Assembly: GCF_009769165.1 (NCBI RefSeq)
Contig: NZ_CP043476.1
Location: forward strand, 4,657,001 to 4,721,000
Length of the DNA: 64,000 nucleotides
DNA from: Xanthomonas hyacinthi
Lineage (GTDB): Bacteria > Pseudomonadota > Gammaproteobacteria > Xanthomonadales > Xanthomonadaceae
Reading direction: 5' to 3'
Part shown: positions 26,966 through 64,000 of the stretch, in pieces
Layout of the letters: every line of letters begins with the position of its first letter
Numbering within the stretch: the first letter of the stretch is position 1
The notes under the pieces: model-generated
The model's database searches: none
Seen by the model: the letters and a program-made list of their open reading frames with translations, nothing else
Told to the model about the DNA's origin: nothing
Program-made: the position numbers and the translations under genes

Positions 26966-27565
26966 ATGCGCGGACGCGACGAAGACACCGGTGAATTCCG
27001 CGGCGACAGCCGCAGCCAGCAGCGCCGCGCGGCGCTGGAAGTGCTGACCCTGGGCGAGAAGCTGGTGGCGCTGACCCCGGCGCAGCTGGCCAGGCTGCCG
27101 GTGCCCGACGCGCTGATCCCGCATATCGCCGAAACCAAGCGCATCACCTCGCATATCGCGCACAAGCGGCAGCTGGCGTTCCTGGCCAAGCAGATGCGCC
27201 GCGAGGACGATGCGACCCTGGACGCGATCCGCGAAGCCATGGACGTCAACAGCGACGGCGCGCGCCGCGAAGTGGCGGCGATCCACCGGGTCGAGGACTG
27301 GCGCGCGCGCCTGCTCGCCGACGGCGACAGCGCGCTGTCCGAGCTGCTGGGCGAATACCCCGAGGCCGACCGCCAACGCTTGCGCCAGCTGATCCGCAAC
27401 GCCAAGGAAGAGCGGCTGAAGAACAAGCCGCCGCACGCCTATCGGGAGTTGTTCCGGGAGTTGCGCGAGCTGGTGCTCGGGGACTCGGGACTCGGGACTG
27501 GGGACTCGGGACTCGAAGCAGCGGACCTGGACGCGCTCGAAACCGATCCCGACGAACGCGACTGA
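26966..27565 (+). CDS. darP: Ribosome biogenesis factor DarP (YjgA)
   Basis: 199 residues from the ATG at 26966. The body ([53 protein letters not shown]) matches YjgA/DarP, which binds the late 50S precursor and aids peptidyl-transferase-centre maturation. The family normally ends soon after ...[11 protein letters not shown]. Here the reading frame continues into five exact 7-bp repeats (27480-27514), adding [17 protein letters not shown] and an acidic tail. That C-terminal extension is therefore repeat-derived. Divergent from pmbA with a 73-bp shared upstream region. Confidence 0.9.
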
Positions 27566-33137: not shown

Positions 33138-33146
33138 TTAGAGGCG

Positions 33147-33303
33147 GGGAATGGGGAATCGGGAGTGGGGAATGGGAAAGGCAGGACGCGGGCAGCTCAC
33201 TGCCGTGCGCAATCCCGCAAACGACTTCGTGGATGGAAACCAGGATGCATCGGGGCCGACATCACGCTCTTGCCCCATTCCCCATTCCCGATTCCCCACT
33301 CCC
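33147..33303. repeat. Heptad inverted-repeat element between rng and yhdP
   Basis: Left arm GGGAATG, GGGAATC, GGGAGTG, GGGAATG (33147-33174); right arm CATTCCC, CATTCCC, GATTCCC, CACTCCC (33276-33303). The core (101 bp) begins GGAAAGGCAGGAC and ends CGCTCTTGCC, giving weak extra pairing inside the arms. The element sits 9 bp from the yhdP start and 4 bp from the rng stop, filling the whole gap, so it may contribute to mRNA processing or attenuation between rng and yhdP. Confidence 0.85.
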
Positions 33304-41787: not shown

Positions 41788-42585
41788 TCAGCTGGCGGAC
41801 GCGGCGGCCGGCGCATACAGTCCGGCGGCGCGGATGTAGTCCGCCACCGGGGCCGGCAGCAGCGCCGCCCAGTCCTCGCCGGCGGCGATGCGCTCACGCA
41901 CCTGGCTGGCCGATTCGGTGCGCAGCGGCTGCCGCAGGCACCACAGCAGGCCGCCCGGCGCGCCGGCCAGCGCCTGCGGCGACGCCGCCCAGCGCCCGGC
42001 CAGCGCCTGCGCCAGTTCGGCCGGCAAGGCGCGCTCCCAGCCGCTGCCGGCGCGGTCGGCGACGACCAGATGCGCCGCGTCGAGCAGGCTGCGCCAGTCG
42101 CGCCAGCCGGTGAAGCCGACGAAGCTGTCGGCGCCGATCAGCAGCGCCAGTGGCGCGGCGGCGCCGAGCTCGGCACGCAGTTCGCGCACCGTGTCGATGC
42201 TGTACGAGGCCACGCCCGGCTGCGCCAGCGCGCGCTGCAGCTCGTGCCGGTCCAGCAGCAGCCCCGGTTCGCCAGCGATGGCCAGCGCCAGCATCTCGCA
42301 GCGCTGCCGCGCATTGGCACCGGGCGCCTCGCGATGCGGCGGATCGGCGGCCGGCATCAGCCGCACCGGCACCCCGAACGCATCGCGCCCCGCCCGCGCG
42401 ATCGCCAGGTGGCCGTTGTGGATGGGGTCGAAGGTGCCGCCGTAGATCAGCTGCAGTGGCCGGGAATCGGGAATCGGGAATCGGGAATCGGCAACAGCCA
42501 CAGCCGCCACCTGGCGCGCGGCCGGCACGGTCGCAGCACCGCTGTTCCCATTCCCGATTCCCGATTCCCCACTCCCGGCCTTCAT
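41788..42585 (-). CDS. nadD: Nicotinate-nucleotide adenylyltransferase with repeat-derived leader
   Basis: 265 residues from the ATG at 42585, which overlaps the holA stop (ATGA). The catalytic domain begins only at about residue 45 with LQLIYGGTFDPIHNGHLAIA, holding the nucleotidyl-transferase signature (HNGH). The C-terminal SxTxxR-like motif is TESASQVRERIAAG. The enzyme adenylates nicotinate mononucleotide to deamido-NAD and is essential. The first 40 or so residues (GSGESGIGNGNSG ... DSRFPIPDSRP) are the translation of the heptad inverted-repeat element at 42462-42576. Normal family members are about 215-220 residues, so either this leader is translated or initiation uses an internal GTG/CTG. 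Confidence 0.9.
   Translation of the reverse strand: MKAGSGESGIGNGNSGAATVPAARQVAAVAVADSRFPIPDSRPLQLIYGGTFDPIHNGHLAIARAGRDAFGVPVRLMPAADPPHREAPGANARQRCEMLALAIAGEPGLLLDRHELQRALAQPGVASYSIDTVRELRAELGAAAPLALLIGADSFVGFTGWRDWRSLLDAAHLVVADRAGSGWERALPAELAQALAGRWAASPQALAGAPGGLLWCLRQPLRTESASQVRERIAAGEDWAALLPAPVADYIRAAGLYAPAAASAS
42462..42576. repeat. Heptad inverted-repeat element inside the nadD 5' end
   Basis: Left arm: four perfect GGGAATC heptads (42462-42489). Right arm: CATTCCC, GATTCCC, GATTCCC, CACTCCC (42549-42576). The 59-bp core is open in the nadD frame. The right arm ends six bases from the holA stop. All of it is transcribed between holA and the nadD catalytic domain. Confidence 0.85.
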
Positions 42586-43616
42586 ACCACCAACAACCGC
42601 ACCGCCCGCGCCTCGGCGATGGCCAGCAGCAGGCGCTCCAGTGCGATCCAGGCGTCGCCGTCGGCGCGGCCCTTGGCGATGCGGTCGATGCGTCCGGCCT
42701 CGGCGGCGAAGCGCTCCCAGCGGCGCGGTTCGGCATGCCGCTGCAGGGCGCGCTTGAACGGCGCCTGGCGCGATTCCCAGATGCCCTGCCCCTTCATTTC
42801 CGCGGCCAGGTTGCCGCCGGCCGCCTGCACCTTGGCCAGCGCCGCGGTGCGCAGCAGTTCCTTGATCAGGATCGGCAGCAGCGCGGCCACCGCCTCGCCT
42901 TCGGCGCGCAGCCCGGCGAGCATGCGCCCGACCGCCGGCGCCTGCCCGGCCAGGGTGGCTTCGGCCAGACGGAACACGTCGTAGCGCGCGGCATCGGCGA
43001 CCAGCGTTTCCATCATAGCCACGTCCAGGCTCTGCCCGTCGGCCAGCAGCGCCAGCTTGTCGATCTCCTGCGCGGCGGCCAGCAGATTGCCTTCGACCCG
43101 CTCGGCCAGGCGCTGCACCGCGCCGGCATCGGCACGCAGGCCCTTGCTGCGCAGGCGGCGCTCGATCCAGTCGCCCAGTTCGTGCGGCTTGATCGCCCAG
43201 GCCACCGCGATCACCCCGAGCCGGCCGACCGCATCGGCCCACTTGCCCTGGTGCGCCTTGCTCCATTCGTTGCAGGTGATCAGTAGCACCACGTCCGGCG
43301 GCGGATCGGCGCAGAACGCACTGATCACCTCGCCGCCTTCCTTGCCGGGCTTGCCGCTGGGCAGGCGCAGTTCGATCAGCCGGCGCGGGCTGAACAGGCT
43401 GGGCGCATTGAAGCTGGAATACAGCTGGCTCCAGTCGAACTCGCGGCCGTCGGCGTCGAACACCTCGCGCTCGCCGATGCCTTCGGCGCGCGCGCGGGCG
43501 CGCACCGCGTCGGCGGCCTCGAGCACGCGCAGGGTTTCCGGGCCGGCGATCAGATAGACCGGATGCAGCGGCTGCGCGGCCGGCTGGGTGACGAGTTGTT
43601 CGGGACGCAATTCCAT
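42582..43616 (-). CDS. holA: DNA polymerase III subunit delta
   Basis: 344 residues (MELRPEQLVTQPAAQPLHPV). Typical delta motifs include VYLIAGPETLRVLEAADAVR, FNAPSLFSPRRLIELRLPSG and LAERVEGNLLAAAQEIDKLAL. Delta opens the beta sliding clamp within the clamp-loader complex. The C-terminal collar domain is complete. Its stop overlaps the nadD start as ATGA. Order lptE-holA-nadD is as in E. coli. Confidence 0.96.
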   Translation of the reverse strand: MELRPEQLVTQPAAQPLHPVYLIAGPETLRVLEAADAVRARARAEGIGEREVFDADGREFDWSQLYSSFNAPSLFSPRRLIELRLPSGKPGKEGGEVISAFCADPPPDVVLLITCNEWSKAHQGKWADAVGRLGVIAVAWAIKPHELGDWIERRLRSKGLRADAGAVQRLAERVEGNLLAAAQEIDKLALLADGQSLDVAMMETLVADAARYDVFRLAEATLAGQAPAVGRMLAGLRAEGEAVAALLPILIKELLRTAALAKVQAAGGNLAAEMKGQGIWESRQAPFKRALQRHAEPRRWERFAAEAGRIDRIAKGRADGDAWIALERLLLAIAEARAVRLLVV

Positions 43617-54573: not shown

Positions 54574-55026
54574 ATGCGCACCACCTTCAAGACCCTGCTG
54601 CTGGCCCTGCCGCTGAGCGTGGCTGCGCTCGTCGCGCAGGCCGCCGACACCTCGCCGGTCGGCCGCTGGCAGACCATCGACGACGACACCGGCAAGCCCA
54701 AGTCCATCGTGCAGATCGAGCAGGCCGGCAACGGCACGCTGAGCGGCAAGGTGATCGAGATCCTGCAATCGAACAAGGGGGCCAATCCGCTGTGCGCCAA
54801 GTGCGACGGCGCGCAGAAGGGCAAGCCGATCAAGGGCATGACCATCCTGTGGGGACTGAAGCCGGACGGCAGCGCGGTGTGGAGCGGCGGTTCGGTGCTG
54901 GACCCGGCCAAAGGCAAGACCTACAAGGCCAAGGTCACCCTCAGCGATGGCGGCAAGAAGCTGCAGCTGCGCGGCTACATCGGCATCGAGGCGCTGGGGC
55001 GGACGCAGACCTGGATCAGGGAGTAG
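54574..55026 (+). CDS. DUF2147 domain periplasmic protein
   Basis: 150 residues from the ATG at 54574, with GGGAGGGG just upstream. The signal peptide ends in AQAAD near residue 24. The domain begins SPVGRWQTIDDDTGKPKSIV and contains NPLCAKCDGAQKGKPIKGM and AKVTLSDGGKKLQLRGYIG, the DUF2147 signature with a paired cysteine motif (CAKC). Function is unknown. The gene is followed at once by a heptad element carrying a terminator. Confidence 0.9.
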   Translation: MRTTFKTLLLALPLSVAALVAQAADTSPVGRWQTIDDDTGKPKSIVQIEQAGNGTLSGKVIEILQSNKGANPLCAKCDGAQKGKPIKGMTILWGLKPDGSAVWSGGSVLDPAKGKTYKAKVTLSDGGKKLQLRGYIGIEALGRTQTWIRE

Positions 55027-55031
55027 GAGCC

Positions 55032-55157
55032 GGGAATCGAGAACCGGGAATCGGGAATCGACAAAGCAGGGCGCCCGCGAGGGCGCCTTTTTCGTGCGCG
55101 GCGGCCAGCGGCCTGCTCTTGCCTGGACCGATTCCCCATTCCCGATTCCCCATTCCC
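55032..55157. repeat. Heptad inverted-repeat element between the DUF2147 gene and metG
   Basis: Left arm: GGGAATC, GAGAACC, GGGAATC, GGGAATC (55032-55059). Right arm: GATTCCC, CATTCCC, GATTCCC, CATTCCC (55130-55157). The core starts GACAAAGCAGGGC and ends CTGCTCTTGCC, like the copy at 33147. The core contains a terminator hairpin. The right arm lies 42 bp before the metG start. Confidence 0.85.
55070..55092 (+). terminator. Terminator hairpin inside the heptad element
   Basis: A 7-bp GC stem GGCGCCC / GGGCGCC with a 4-base loop followed by TTTTT. It would end the DUF2147 transcript before metG. Confidence 0.75.
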
Positions 55158-55199
55158 GAGTAATGCGATAATCGCGATCCCCCCGGATCGCCGTTCGCC

Positions 55200-57269
55200 A
55201 TGACCCGCACCGCTCTCGTCACCACCGCCCTGCCCTACGCCAACGGCCCGCTGCACCTGGGCCATCTGGTCGGCTACATCCAGGCCGACATCTGGGTGCG
55301 CGCGCGGCGGCTGCGCGGCGACCGCACCTGGTTCGTCTGCGCCGACGACACCCACGGCACGCCGATCATGCTCGCCGCGGAGAAGGCCGGGGTCACCCCG
55401 GAGAACTTCATCGCCAACATCCAGGCCAGCCACGAGCGCGATTTCGCCGCGTTCGGCGTGGCCTTCGACCATTACGACTCGACCAACTCGGCCGCCAACC
55501 GCGCGCTGACCGAGGCGTTCTACGCCAGGCTCGACGCTGGCGGCCACATCGCGCGGCGCTCGGTGGCGCAGTTCTACGATACGGCCAAGCGCATGTTCCT
55601 GCCCGACCGCTACATCAAGGGCATCTGCCCCAACTGCGGCAGCGCCGACCAGTACGGCGACAACTGCGAGGTCTGCGGCGCCACCTATGCGCCGACCGAG
55701 CTGAAGGAGCCGAAGTCGGTGATCTCCGGCGCCACCCCGGAACTGCGCGACTCCGAGCACTTCTTCTTCGAAGTCGGCCGCTTCGACGGCTTCCTGCGGC
55801 AGTGGCTGGCCGGCGACGTGGCCCTGCCCGGGGTCAAGGCCAAGCTGATGGAGTGGTTGGACAGCGAAGGCGGGCTGCGCGCCTGGGACATCTCGCGCGA
55901 TGCGCCGTACTTCGGCTTCGAGATCCCCGGCCAGCCGGGCAAGTATTTCTACGTGTGGCTGGACGCGCCGATCGGCTACCTGAGCAGCTTCCAGAACCTG
56001 TGCGCGAGCCTGGGCGAAGCGTTCGAGCCGCACCTGGCGGCCGGCAGCGCCACCGAACTGCACCATTTCATCGGCAAGGACATCGTCAACTTCCACGGCC
56101 TGTTCTGGCCGGCAGTGCTGCACGGCACCGGCCACCGCGCGCCGACCCGGCTGCACGTCAACGGCTACCTGATGGTGGACGGCGCCAAGATGTCCAAGTC
56201 GCGCGGCACCTTCGTGATGGCGCGCACTTACCTGGACGTGGGCCTGGAGCCGGAAGCGCTGCGCTACTACTTCGCCGCCAAGTCCTCCGGCGGCGTCGAC
56301 GATCTGGACTTGAACCTGGGCGACTTCGTGGCGCGGGTCAATGCCGACCTGGTCGGCAAGTTCGTCAACCTGGCCAGCCGCTGCGCCGGTTTCATCGACA
56401 AGCGCTTCGGCGGCCGGCTCGCCGAAGCGCTGCCGGACCCGGCGCAGTACGCGCGCTTCGTCGCCGCGCTGGCGCCGATCCGCGAGGCCTACGAACGCAA
56501 CGACGCGGCCAGCGCGATCCGCCAGACCATGGCCCTGGCCGACGAAGCCAACAAGTACATCGACGAACACAAGCCTTGGGTGATCGCCAAGCAGGACGGC
56601 GCCGACGCGCAGTTGCAGGCGGTCTGCACCCAGGGCCTGAACCTGTTCCGCGTGCTGGCCGGTGCGCTGAAGCCGGTGCTGCCGCGCACCAGCGCCGAAG
56701 CCGAAGCCTTCCTGTCCGCGCCGCTGGCGGCCTGGGACGACCTCGATGCGCCGCTGCTGGCGCACGTCATCCAGTCCTACACCCCGCTGTTCACCCGAAT
56801 CGACCCCAAACTCATCGACGCCATGACCGACGCCTCCAAGGACACCCTCGCACCCGCACCCGCCGCCGCCAAGCCGGCGCCGGCCAAGCCCGAAGCCAAG
56901 GCCGCTGCGACTCCCGAATCCCCACTCCCCACTCCCGGCCTCATCGGCATCGACGATTTCGCCAAGCTCGACCTGCGCATCGGCAAGGTGCTGGTGTGCG
57001 AATGCGTCGAGGGCTCGGACAAGCTGCTGCGCTTCGAGCTGGACGCTGGCGAACTGGGCAAGCGGCAGATCTTCTCCGGCATCCGCGGCAGCTACGCCGA
57101 GCCGGAAAAACTGGTCGGCCGCAGCGTGGTGTTCATCGCCAACCTGGCCCCGCGCAAGATGCGCTTCGGCCTCAGCGAAGGCATGATCCTGTCGGCCGGC
57201 TTCGACGGCGGTGCGCTGGCGCTGCTCGACGCCGACGGCGGCGCGCAGCCGGGTATGCCAGTGCGTTAA
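55200..57269 (+). CDS. metG: Methionyl-tRNA synthetase
   Basis: 689 residues. Class I signatures: GPLHLGHLVGY and AKMSKSRGT. A zinc knuckle CPNCGSADQYGDNCEVCG lies in the connective domain. The C-terminal tRNA-binding (EMAP-like) domain starts IDDFAKLDLRIGKVLVCE and dimerises. The linker between the anticodon domain and this domain is Ala/Pro/Lys-rich and contains PESPLPTPG, encoded by four repeat heptads (56909-56936). Otherwise normal length and order. It charges initiator and elongator tRNA-Met. Confidence 0.97.
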   Translation: MTRTALVTTALPYANGPLHLGHLVGYIQADIWVRARRLRGDRTWFVCADDTHGTPIMLAAEKAGVTPENFIANIQASHERDFAAFGVAFDHYDSTNSAANRALTEAFYARLDAGGHIARRSVAQFYDTAKRMFLPDRYIKGICPNCGSADQYGDNCEVCGATYAPTELKEPKSVISGATPELRDSEHFFFEVGRFDGFLRQWLAGDVALPGVKAKLMEWLDSEGGLRAWDISRDAPYFGFEIPGQPGKYFYVWLDAPIGYLSSFQNLCASLGEAFEPHLAAGSATELHHFIGKDIVNFHGLFWPAVLHGTGHRAPTRLHVNGYLMVDGAKMSKSRGTFVMARTYLDVGLEPEALRYYFAAKSSGGVDDLDLNLGDFVARVNADLVGKFVNLASRCAGFIDKRFGGRLAEALPDPAQYARFVAALAPIREAYERNDAASAIRQTMALADEANKYIDEHKPWVIAKQDGADAQLQAVCTQGLNLFRVLAGALKPVLPRTSAEAEAFLSAPLAAWDDLDAPLLAHVIQSYTPLFTRIDPKLIDAMTDASKDTLAPAPAAAKPAPAKPEAKAAATPESPLPTPGLIGIDDFAKLDLRIGKVLVCECVEGSDKLLRFELDAGELGKRQIFSGIRGSYAEPEKLVGRSVVFIANLAPRKMRFGLSEGMILSAGFDGGALALLDADGGAQPGMPVR
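56909..56936 (+). repeat. Solo heptad arm in the metG linker
   Basis: GACTCCC, GAATCCC, CACTCCC, CACTCCC in tandem, in the same family as the intergenic elements but with only one arm. Twenty-eight bases are not a multiple of three, so the frame must have been adjusted around it. It encodes TPESPLPTPG between two folded domains, where length change is tolerated. Confidence 0.65.
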
Positions 57270-57274
57270 AAGCT

Positions 57275-57373
57275 GGGAATGGAGAATCGGGAATCGAGAA
57301 TGGGAAAAGGCAAAGCCTCGTCCGCACCGATAGAGCGGCTTCCACCATTCCCGTTTCTCCATTCCCCATTCCC
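57275..57373. repeat. Heptad inverted-repeat element abutting the HAD phosphatase start
   Basis: Left arm: GGGAATG, GAGAATC, GGGAATC, GAGAATG (57275-57302). Right arm: CATTCCC, GTTTCTC, CATTCCC, CATTCCC (57346-57373). The right arm ends exactly at the base before the ATG of the HAD gene, replacing any usual ribosome-binding site. The left arm begins 5 bp after the metG stop. Confidence 0.85.
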
Positions 57374-57964
57374 ATGCACTTAGCCCTCTTCGACTTCGAC
57401 CACACGGTCACCACCACCGATACCTATTCGCGGTTCCTGCGCCGCGTGGCCACACCGCAGCAGCTGGCGCAGGCGAAGTGGTCGGTGGGGCCGTGGTTGG
57501 CCGGCTATCGGCTGGGCCTGGTGTCGGCGCAGGCGATCCGCAGGCGGGTCACGCGGATCGTGTTCGCCGGCCGGGCCGCAGGGGAGATCGCCGCGCACGC
57601 CCGGGCATATGCGCACGAGGTGCTGCCGACGCTGCTGCGGCCGGAGATGATGCAGCGCATCGCCTGGCACCGGGCGCAGGGCGACAGCGTGGTGCTGGTG
57701 TCCGCGTCGCTGGACCTGTATCTGCAACCGTGGTGCGCACAGCACGGGCTGGGGCTGATCTGCAACCGCCTGGAAGCGCGCGACGGCCGGCTGACCGGGC
57801 GCTATGCCGATGGCGATTGCGGGCCGCACAAAGCGCGGCTGATCCGCGCGCGCTACGATGTGGCCGCCTATCCGCGCGTCTACGCCTACGGCGACAGCCG
57901 CGAAGACCGGCCGATGCTGGCGCTGGCCCACGAGCGCTGGTACGGCGGCCGCCGCGTCGCCTGA
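57374..57964 (+). CDS. HAD-IB family phosphatase (SerB/YfhB-like)
   Basis: 196 residues from the ATG at 57374. Motif I is [11 protein letters not shown] (D7 nucleophile, D9); motif II is VVLVSAS; motif IV is [11 protein letters not shown]. The cap between motifs I and II is alpha-helical. HAD-IB members dephosphorylate phosphoserine or lysophosphatidic/phosphatidylglycerol phosphates; the substrate is unclear. The start is unusual: the sequence in front of the ATG is the right arm of a heptad element (CCATTCCC), with no Shine-Dalgarno. Confidence 0.88.
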
Positions 57965-61505: not shown

Positions 61506-64000
61506 TCAGTGGCTTGCAGCTTCGTCGATCCATGTGTCAGAGGATGCGGCTACTGGGAAATCAGGAAAGAAATTCATCAACCGTGCTATTTCCTCCTCGC
61601 TGAACATCTGGAAATCTTCCCCTGCGCCAGGGGAGGGGAAGAAATCCGCGTCTTGTTCTAGGAAAGCAGCGCTGGAAACTGCCAGCTCGGCGTCCGTAGG
61701 CATTCCAGGATCCGGGAGGCCGTGGGCGATGGAACGCGGGCGTTTTGCACCCCAGCTGCTGAGGAGGGGGAGATGTGGAGCATCGCGGTGTTCGGGAATG
61801 GGGGCATCGGCAATCTGCTGTGCGAGGAAGCTGTGCACTGGATCATCGGATCGGGACCGTTTGCGGCTGCTTGACCCAGCCGGGAATGCATCCTGCATCG
61901 GGCTGGGCGCGTTCAATTCGCGCTCCAGGGAGTCGGCGAATACATGCAAGGACTCCTGGATCGGAGTTTGAACATAAGCAGAGCGCGGTTTCATCCCCAA
62001 TGCATGGACAATGCGTTGCCAACGCTGGGATGTTGTGGGGATAGTTCCACTGATGGCTTCGAGTTCCGTGACGCCAATACAGCGAAATAGCTGTAACAAC
62101 CCTTGCCTGCTCATCTCGAACTCGGCCATCGCTTCATGAAATGCATGCGTTGGATTGGAGTGGCACTGGAAGAAACTCAGCACTCGAAGTGTTTTCCCGA
62201 GTTCAGCTACGTCGCGGGCCGTGCGTTCGGGAACACGGTTGTTCATTTTCCTGATCAATGCCACCGCCTGTGGCAAGCCGTTCTTAACCGCCTCCAATGC
62301 AGGACGTCCGCCGAGGCAGGCCAAGGCGACGAGGCCGTCGCTGGTAAACGCGGCCAACGCCGGGTGAGGGGTGGATAACTGGACAACAACACCTTCCAGC
62401 GCCTGCTTGCCGCCGATGTTGCTGGCGATGGCCACGACCTGCTGCGGGGTCAGGGCATGGGGCGCCTGGCATAGCACGGGCAGCAGCCTCCGCACCGTCT
62501 CCAGCGCCTGCCTGCCGCCATCGTTGCTGGCGATGGCCACGACCTGCTGCGGGGTCAGGGCATGGGGCGCCTGGCATAGCACGGGCAGCAGCCTCTGCAC
62601 CGTCTCCAGCGCCTGCCTGCCGCCGATGTTGCTGGCGATGGCCACGACCTGCTGCGGGGTCAGGGCATGGGGCGCCTGGCATAGCACGGGCAGCAGCCTC
62701 TGCACCGTCTCCAGCGCCTGCCTGCCGCCATCGTTGCTGGCGATGGCCACGACCTGCTGCGGGGTCAGGGCATGGGGCGCCTGGCATAGCACGGGCAGCA
62801 GCCTCTGCACCGTCTCCAGCGCCTGCTTGCCGCCGATGTTGCCGGCGATGGCCACGACCTGCTGCGGGGTCAGGGCATGGGGCTCCTGGCATAGCACGGG
62901 CAGCAGCCTCTGCACCGTCTCCAGCGCCTGCCTGCCGCCATCGTTGCTGGCGATGGCCACGACCTGCTGCGGGGTCAGGGCATAGGGCGCCTGGCATAGC
63001 ACGGGCAGCAGCCTCTGCACCGTCTCCAGCGCCTGCTTGCCGCCGATGTTGCCGGCGATGGCCACGACCTGCTGCGGGGTCAGGGCATGGGGCGCCTGGC
63101 ATAGCACGGGCAGCAGCCTCTGCACCGTCTCCAGCGCCTGCTTGCCGCCACCGTTGCCGGCGATGGCCACGACCTGCTGCGGGGTCAGGGCATAGGGCGC
63201 CTGGCATAGCACGGGCAGCAGCCTCTGCACCGTCTCCAGCGCCTGCCTGCCGCCATCGTTGCCGGCGATGGCCACGACCTGCTGCGGGGTCAGGGCATAG
63301 GGCGCCTGGCATAGCACGGGCAGCAGCCTCTGCAGCGTCTCCAGCGCCTGCCTGCCGCCACCGTTGCTGGCGATGGCCACGACCTGCTGCGGGGTCAGGG
63401 CATGGGGCGCCTGGCATAGCACGGGCAGCAACCTCTGCACCGTCTCCAGCGCCTGCCTGCCGCCATCGTTGCTGGCGATGGCCACGACCTGCTGCGGGGT
63501 CAGGGCATGGGGCGCCTGGCATAGCACGGGCAGCAGCCTCTGCACCGTCTCCAGCGCCTGCTTGCCGCCACCGTTGCCGGCGATGGCCACGACCTGCTGC
63601 GGGGTCAGGGCATAGGGCGCCTGGCATAGCACGGGCAGCAGCCTCTGCAGCGTCTCCAGCGCCTGCTTGCCGCCGATGTTGCCGGCGATGGCCACGACCT
63701 GTTGCGGGGTCAGGGCATAGGGGGCCTGGCATAGCACGGGCAGCAACCTCTGCACCGTCTCCAGCGCCTGCTTGCCGCCATGGTTGCTGGCGATGGCCAC
63801 GACCTGCTGCGGGGTCAGGGCATGGGGCGCCTGGCATAGCACGGGCAGCAGCCTCTGCAGCGTCTCCAGCGCCTGCCTGCCGCCATCGTTGCTGGCGATG
63901 GCCACGACCTGCTGCGGGGTCAGGGCATGGGGCGCCTGGCATAGCACGGGCAGCAGCCTCTGCACCGTCTCCAGCGCCTGCTTGCCGCCACCGTTGCTGG
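61506..64000 (-). CDS. tal: TAL effector (5' part beyond window)
   Basis: The gene enters from the right edge and stops at 61506. It is a type III-secreted transcription activator that binds host promoters through tandem repeats. Visible from N to C: the end of one repeat, 14 complete 35-residue repeats, a 20-residue half repeat, and a C-terminal region of about 295 residues. That region has the cryptic helical part (TSDGLVALACLGGRPALEAV; FFQCHSNPTHAFHEA), nuclear localisation signals SRKRSRSD and AKRPRS, and an acidic activation domain (EEEIARLMNFFPDF) that differs from the canonical EEELAWLMELLPQ and carries an 18-residue extra tail. The C-terminal coding region is visibly lower in GC than the chromosome, a sign of transfer. 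The N-terminal secretion region is not in view. Confidence 0.97.
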   Translation of the reverse strand, partial: SNGGGKQALETVQRLLPVLCQAPHALTPQQVVAIASNDGGRQALETLQRLLPVLCQAPHALTPQQVVAIASNHGGKQALETVQRLLPVLCQAPYALTPQQVVAIAGNIGGKQALETLQRLLPVLCQAPYALTPQQVVAIAGNGGGKQALETVQRLLPVLCQAPHALTPQQVVAIASNDGGRQALETVQRLLPVLCQAPHALTPQQVVAIASNGGGRQALETLQRLLPVLCQAPYALTPQQVVAIAGNDGGRQALETVQRLLPVLCQAPYALTPQQVVAIAGNGGGKQALETVQRLLPVLCQAPHALTPQQVVAIAGNIGGKQALETVQRLLPVLCQAPYALTPQQVVAIASNDGGRQALETVQRLLPVLCQEPHALTPQQVVAIAGNIGGKQALETVQRLLPVLCQAPHALTPQQVVAIASNDGGRQALETVQRLLPVLCQAPHALTPQQVVAIASNIGGRQALETVQRLLPVLCQAPHALTPQQVVAIASNDGGRQALETVRRLLPVLCQAPHALTPQQVVAIASNIGGKQALEGVVVQLSTPHPALAAFTSDGLVALACLGGRPALEAVKNGLPQAVALIRKMNNRVPERTARDVAELGKTLRVLSFFQCHSNPTHAFHEAMAEFEMSRQGLLQLFRCIGVTELEAISGTIPTTSQRWQRIVHALGMKPRSAYVQTPIQESLHVFADSLERELNAPSPMQDAFPAGSSSRKRSRSDDPVHSFLAQQIADAPIPEHRDAPHLPLLSSWGAKRPRSIAHGLPDPGMPTDAELAVSSAAFLEQDADFFPSPGAGEDFQMFSEEEIARLMNFFPDFPVAASSDTWIDEAASH
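62394..64000 (-). repeat. TAL repeat array, 105-bp units
   Basis: Direct 105-bp repeats. Reading N to C, the visible repeat-variable diresidues are NG, ND, NH, NI, NG, ND, NG, ND, NG, NI, ND, NI, ND, NI, ND and the half repeat NI. Each unit follows LTPQQVVAIA-S/G-N-x-GG, then K/R and QALETVQRLLPVLCQAP-H/Y-A. Residue 11 is Gly rather than Ser in six units. All six ND units carry Arg at residue 16. By the known code (NG=T, ND=C, NH=G, NI=A) the visible part would read TCGATCTCTACACACA at the 3' end of the target. Confidence 0.95.

Follow-up and report, generated by a model that had tools for sequence, protein, structure and literature searches.

Comparison of Xanthomonas species indicates that a palindromic heptad repeat lying directly behind holA is read as a leader of NadD, and that the reading frame through this repeat is kept while the repeat itself changes. 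NadD, an NAD-making enzyme, is essential, and the leader is very probably translated as an extension of its N-terminus, as judged from conservation among related sequences. We consider it highly likely that nadD is initiated where its start codon overlaps the stop of holA, that the whole element is translated and that its frame is under selection. The leader is present at the holA-nadD junction in 37/37 Xanthomonas species examined (20/20 in the genus group of the genome analysed here, or group 1, and 17/17 in g17, or group 2, which we take to be the second of the two groups into which Xanthomonas divides), and since it recurs at the same junction in all of them it is real beyond chance. This offers a natural case of a repeat usually filed as non-coding and regulatory that, by comparative evidence, appears to encode the front end of a central enzyme across a genus, and it bears on the inconsistent annotation of nadD starts. 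The repeat family and palindromes carried in frame (the Rickettsia RPEs) are already known from published work (PMC4692102; PMC10969869). As far as the literature search reaches, the genus-wide NadD leader, its frame lock and its turnover in blocks are new; no earlier report of a coding leader in nadD was found in the literature searched, supplements being outside its scope.

The holA-nadD junction and its repeat

The window is a stretch of 64,000 nucleotides from X. hyacinthi (NZ_CP043476.1, positions 4,657,001 to 4,721,000), in which the junction has the following features:

42582..43616, minus strand: holA (DNA polymerase III delta), the upstream gene (NCBIfam TIGR01128, 234.9 bits against a cut-off of 80)
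42582..42585, minus strand: ATGA, in which the nadD start and the holA stop overlap (from the sequence)
42457..42585, minus strand: nadD codons 1-43, the putative element-encoded leader MKAGSGESGIGNGNSGAATVPAARQVAAVAVADSRFPIPDSRP (from translation, frame conservation and pLDDT)
42547..42580, minus strand: 5' arm of the inverted heptad array, made of GGGAATC units and rich in G on the mRNA
42492..42546, minus strand: spacer of the element (loop side)
42458..42491, minus strand: 3' arm, GATTCCC units
41788..42456, minus strand: NadD catalytic domain and stop (NCBIfam NF000839 and TIGR00482)

An earlier note on this DNA had claimed that the holA stop and the ATG at 42585 overlap as ATGA, which is confirmed on the minus strand (TGA at 42584-42582, ATG at 42585-42583). 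The frame from this ATG is open to a stop ending at 41788 and encodes 265 residues (P0001), which pass two NadD equivalog cut-offs (NF000839, 264.1 bits against 187, matched from residue 43; TIGR00482, 139.3 bits against 112.45, matched from residue 47). Residues 1-43 precede LQLIYGG and include GSGESGIGNGNSG and DSRFPIPDSRP, exactly the leader of about 43 residues that had been described, and the ATG, then called the only one nearby, is indeed the sole in-frame ATG of the leader; three in-frame GTG (codons 20, 26 and 29) are also present, followed by CTG at codons 44 and 46. The start lies 47 codons from a conserved Tyr of the catalytic domain. Tryptic digestion of the leader would yield AGSGESGIGNGNSGAATVPAAR, diagnostic of initiation ahead of codon 20, and QVAAVAVADSR, diagnostic of initiation ahead of codon 26.

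Inverted heptad arrays take up nearly all of codons 1-43, one array (42461-42491) counting 4.4 copies with a match of 100% and the other (42545-42577) 4.9 copies with a match of 85%. The two arms are 91% complementary and 55 nt apart, and the RNA of the element folds at -100.3 kcal/mol (z -9.37), a value equalled by 0/200 dinucleotide shuffles; pairing in the hairpin begins at nt 6 of the nadD ORF. MITE-like terminal inverted repeats were seen by eye: read along the nadD strand, the 5' end carries GGCCGGGA and the 3' end TCCCGGCC. In the genome, GGGANTCGGGANTC matches 127 times in forward and 81 times in reverse orientation, and the reversed control pattern 0 times and once. In the window, no Rfam family scored at or above its gathering score, and a plasmid search with the junction returned only two records, both weak or partial.

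The heptad palindrome at nadD belongs to the known Xanthomonas GGGNATC family. Repeats of this family were defined as at least 14 bp of (GGGANTN)n including at least one GGGAATC (Rehm et al. 2015, PMC4692102), and the nadD element carries such a sequence, in an inverted pair whose 5' arm is separated from the holA stop by a single base. The main text of that paper reports 186 and 183 repeats in two Xanthomonas genomes, with 70 inverted pairs in Xcc and 75 in Xac; 89% and 93% of the repeats are intergenic while 11% and 7% overlap ORFs at least partly, most are reported to be transcribed, and G-quadruplexes (G4) formed in vitro. The nadD element has in common with them its heptads, its inverted pairing and its placement close to ORF ends, and differs from their description there in lying wholly in the nadD frame, at one locus and in all 37 species examined; nadD is mentioned 0 times in that main text. 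A second parallel is provided by the RPEs, described in a review as palindromes of about 150 bp in frame within unrelated metabolic genes of Rickettsia (PMC10969869). At nadD, a 123-bp palindrome (42458-42580) is open in the nadD frame, and it is in frame in 37/37 species, so that in both cases a palindrome is, or would be, translated in frame. Unlike the RPEs as that review presents them, the nadD element consists of tandem heptads, is N-terminal behind an NTGA overlap and occupies one locus genus-wide. A search with residues 1-46 for recurrence of the leader peptide in other proteins returned a single protein among 42 candidates, itself a NadD (P0002).

Frame and start codons across species

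The comparison drew on the 20 genomes of group 1, the window's own included, in all of which NadD was found, and on a family sample of 297 genomes, 290 of them with a NadD match. Outside group 1, 112 junctions were read, mostly better-scoring and non-random ones, and 111 were parsed (17 from g17 and 94 from other genera), the family count omitting L129, which lacks a holA match. X. bonasiae (L005) is a named record in the window's group, and leaders of the same kind occur in proteins named X. theicola, X. sacchari and X. graminis. The overlap codon gives ATGA in 20/20 group-1 species, and in group 2 (n=17) GTGA in 15, ATGA in one and TTGA in one. The heptads vary by species (GGGAATC, GGGATTC or GGGATTG, GGGACTC, GGGACGC, GGGACCG, GGGACCC), and two group-1 leaders (L103 and L104) lack clear heptads. 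The earlier note had envisaged strains with and without the element; the compared junctions bear out the leader throughout and make it a feature of the genus rather than a novelty of a strain. With 20/20 and 17/17 species carrying it, a strain-specific insertion and a sequencing or frameshift artefact are both ruled out.

A first line of evidence for coding is length. Between the overlap start and the conserved Tyr, the number of nucleotides is divisible by three in 20/20 group-1 and 17/17 group-2 species, with 10 different lengths (38-63 codons) represented in group 1 and 14 (42-98 codons) in group 2. Taking each further length as an independent event, the chance of this would be ~3^-22, or ~3e-11, a figure that is only rough because the species are related and the lengths not fully independent. 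Two controls behave otherwise. The orthologous stretch after metG, measured in 19/20 species, has length residues 0/1/2 in 7/4/8 of them (17/19 with heptads, L264 and L265 being counted although they have none, and L251 being absent). Junctions of other genera have residues 0/1/2 in 2/11/5 cases (n=18; junctions of at least 60 nt with ATG/GTG at most 10 codons from the Tyr, drawn non-randomly from the higher-scoring matches). The frame lock is open to measurement, since the metG control includes a one-heptad step (111 nt in L247, 104 nt in L248), whereas nadD lengths are only multiples of three. The 37 leaders contain no stop in the leader frame, against 18 in the +1 frame (16 leaders) and 28 in the +2 frame (20 leaders); this is weaker evidence than frame length, because stops are rare in heptad arrays whichever the frame. 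GC at third positions shows no clear rise of the kind expected for coding sequence (0.67/0.63/0.68 at positions 1/2/3 in group 1 and 0.73/0.66/0.68 in group 2).

Start codons point in the same direction. ATG or GTG within 16 codons of the Tyr was found in 85/94 other family genomes vs 0/37 Xanthomonas; counting TTG too, 5/37 Xanthomonas have such a near-domain start. In 14/37 species (2/20 in group 1 and 12/17 in group 2) the overlap codon is the sole ATG/GTG/TTG ahead of the catalytic domain, and the remaining 23/37, the window's among them, have an internal one in the leader. Of the two outcomes put forward in the earlier note, a new protein leader is upheld by an overlap frame kept at varying lengths in 37/37 species and by those 14/37 in which no other start codon is available. 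The other, a displaced start forcing use of an internal codon, held in its first half, near-domain ATG/GTG being absent in 37/37; in its second half it is reduced to possible additional internal starts, alongside the overlap start, in 23/37 species including the window's.

Beyond Xanthomonas, 4/94 other genomes (L127, L138, L157 and L199) have an NTGA overlap start with 30 codons or more between it and the Tyr; L138, from another genus, has an in-frame heptad palindrome, and L127 retains a near-domain ATG. Four loci of other genera (L127, L132, L136 and L139) were seen to carry other repeats or palindromes at the holA-nadD junction, ahead of the near-domain start.

Translation of the element and alternative explanations

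In the proposed scenario, a heptad palindrome came to lie immediately after the holA stop, and nadD no longer has the near-domain start of most relatives. Ribosomes terminating on holA would then re-initiate at the NTGA overlap and translate the whole element as a leader of nadD, 38 codons to the conserved Tyr in the shortest case and 98 in the longest. Because the overlap codon would be the dependable start of an enzyme needed by the cell, the frame through the repeat would be under hard selection, and gains or losses of a single heptad (7 nt), probably lethal as frameshifts, would be purged, whereas heptad letters, spacer and length would turn over fast.

Termination-reinitiation from holA likely drives translation of the leader, by analogy with overlapping gene pairs, of which 13/14 tested were reported to be strictly coupled in this way (PMC6728339); some 20 nt between genes is reported almost to abolish coupling (PMC10666635). 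The holA-nadD pair has the same overlap geometry and serial arrangement as the ATGA systems described in these papers; unlike them, it has a strong hairpin from nt 6 of the downstream gene, and its coupling is presumed. A near-domain start downstream of the element would fall at least ~90 nt past the holA stop, beyond the reach of coupling, while the overlap codon would preserve coupling at the cost of translating the element; such a trade-off would account for the joint conservation of overlap start and frame. The terminating holA ribosome would sit on the foot of the stem and hold it open. Tolerance of a hairpin from nt 6 of an ORF, behind an ATGA overlap, could provide a handle on the response of re-initiating ribosomes to structure. 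Not every member of the family needs coupling to holA, since the 18 control junctions of other genera have near-domain starts 43-222 nt past the holA stop.

It might instead be the RNA that is conserved, the hairpin (for stability, processing or attenuation) or a G-quadruplex being selected and the leader a tolerated by-product. We regard this as possible, if doubtful. It would fit with the reported transcription of most repeats of the family and their G4 formation in vitro (PMC4692102), and in the arms of 18 group-1 species 12/30 consensus pairs are changed on both sides and 512/540 cells pair, a count that favours pairing by omitting L103 and L104. These arms may match through arm-to-arm copying of repeats, however, as well as through selection for pairing. 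Hairpin z is above -2.1 in 9/17 group-2 leaders and 1/20 in group 1 (L103; 60 shuffles each), so that the hairpin is not significant in 10/37 leaders while the frame is held in 37/37. The frame therefore outlives the hairpin.

The rapid change of the leader suggests a further idea, put forward tentatively, namely a hypervariable and exchangeable N-terminal cassette: palindromic heptad alleles would be exchanged or rewritten block by block between species, with holA, the catalytic domain and the frame unchanged, and nadD would lock the frame of a mutable repeat. Identities, gaps counted, between L098 and L099 are 98.8% for holA, 38.6% for the leader and 95.6% for the catalytic part; the corresponding values are 96.0, 62.3 and 97.6% for L097/L100, and 98.3, 70.2 and 95.3% for the window and its nearest relative, L086. 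L097 and L094 display the opposite pattern, with 92% of the leader in common and a domain identity of 85.8%. Turnover falls short of complete scrambling, since leader and domain identity still correlate across all pairs (Spearman 0.51). Leader alleles were seen to switch as blocks in close species and to recur in more distant ones with the flanks unaffected (L094, L097-L100). Copying of whole elements from other loci is unsupported: two leader spacers, the window's own being left out, had full matches in 20 genomes only at nadD (4/4 and 5/7 places), the remaining 2/7 being 24-nt partial matches elsewhere. Copying of heptads only is a possible source of the turnover.

Two proteoforms, one with the full leader from the overlap start and a shorter one from an internal GTG, ATG or TTG, would add to the preferred reading, and we think them unlikely. 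The Shine-Dalgarno match at the window's overlap start is weak (-2.0 kcal/mol), which counts against the preferred reading, and one of the window's three GTG, codon 29, 19 codons before the Tyr, has -5.2 kcal/mol; elsewhere GGGAATG and GGGATTG heptads place ATG or TTG after GGG, with values of -6.4 (L094) and -8.0 (L095 and L102). On average, overlap starts (-2.7) and internal starts (-2.9) are similar. Such a pair of products is impossible via these codons in the 14/37 species with a sole start, however, and would hence not be conserved.

That the leader has a protein function of its own (e.g. in regulation, partner binding or NadD stability) seems improbable. It is kept in 37/37 species, never with fewer than 38 residues before the Tyr, and its pooled pN/pS is 0.66 (0.33 for the catalytic domain), a value below 1 that derives from 19 pairs with equal-length leaders at least 78% identical, some counted twice because the leader of L005 is identical to that of L090 and enters several pairs. 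Against this, turnover is strong (39% leader identity between flanks at 96-99% in L098/L099, gaps counted), its sequence looks weakly constrained, and most other family genomes read have no leader. The leader also looks disordered in an AlphaFold2 model built on 28 sequences, in which residues 1-37 have pLDDT <50 and the four ten-residue blocks of residues 1-40 average 34-43, whereas most blocks of the domain reach 83-96 (two are at 66 and 78, and the C-terminal tail is low). Solved NadD structures of other bacteria (e.g. 1yul and 1k4k; 17 distinct sequences) are like Xanthomonas NadD in the catalytic domain, with matches beginning at residue 42-47 of P0001 and none of the 17 covering the leader.

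The least probable reading, to which we give very little credence, is that NadD initiates solely at an internal codon, either ATG, GTG or TTG within the repeat or, as certain annotations would suggest, a non-standard codon of its 3' arm, with the 5' portion as an untranslated spacer. Annotated nadD starts are inconsistent, with orthologues beginning at various points between the overlap and a position 11 residues ahead of the Tyr; those of P0151, P0184 and P0202 differ from the overlap and are each 11 residues ahead of the Tyr. L236, matched to P0151, has no ATG/GTG/TTG at the annotated position, and a start at ATT has been reported for infC of X. euvesicatoria (PMC5559785). Internal candidates are available in 23/37 leaders, some with better Shine-Dalgarno matches than the overlap, yet with such a start the overlap frame would drift freely when it is in fact fixed in 37/37, 14/37 species have no internal ATG/GTG/TTG, and Shine-Dalgarno energy averages only -0.6 kcal/mol across the last 15 codons ahead of the Tyr (555 positions).

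Heptads elsewhere in the window and genome

Other heptad runs of the window lie within genes or next to them:

27480..27526, plus strand: GGGACTC run that yjgA/darP (26969-27565) carries in frame within its acidic C-terminal tail
33146..33303, no strand assigned: intergenic heptad inverted repeat
55031..55159, no strand assigned: intergenic heptad inverted repeat upstream of metG
56910..56936, plus strand: in-frame heptad run in the linker between the catalytic part and the C-terminal domain of metG
57274..57372, plus strand: intergenic heptad element after metG, the length control with its orthologues

Within group 1, a heptad-like run in yjgA/darP was seen by eye in 18/20 species (L284 and L285 excepted); the tail is open in all 20 loci and its heptad letters vary by species. 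The metG linker displays heptads in 16/20 species, with variants such as ANPESPLPNPG, the other four falling outside the pattern. Both runs encode peptides similar, but not identical, to that of the nadD leader. In the gene after metG, an in-frame ATG eight codons before LFDFD lies inside heptads in 9/19 species, with GTG in L252; L264 and L265 have this ATG without heptads, and seven species have an ATG four codons before LFDFD. At 57270-57400 and its orthologues (L247-L263), heptad-internal candidate starts such as MPNPQS precede LALFDFD, the ATG of the window lying at the end of the element. Heptads of this family may therefore have supplied protein ends and linkers repeatedly (darP, metG and the gene after metG).

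Four elements of the window (33303, 42580, 55031 and 57274) begin at most 5 nt from the stop of the preceding gene, the stop at 55024 having been checked, and by eye their ends resemble G(G/C)C(C/T)GGGA. Elsewhere in the genome there is a perfect (GGGACTC)n array of 36 units (G000:C1:893093-893344). The end of the window (62395-64000) is occupied by a tandem array of about 15 copies of 105 bp, presumably TALE-like, to judge by its period.
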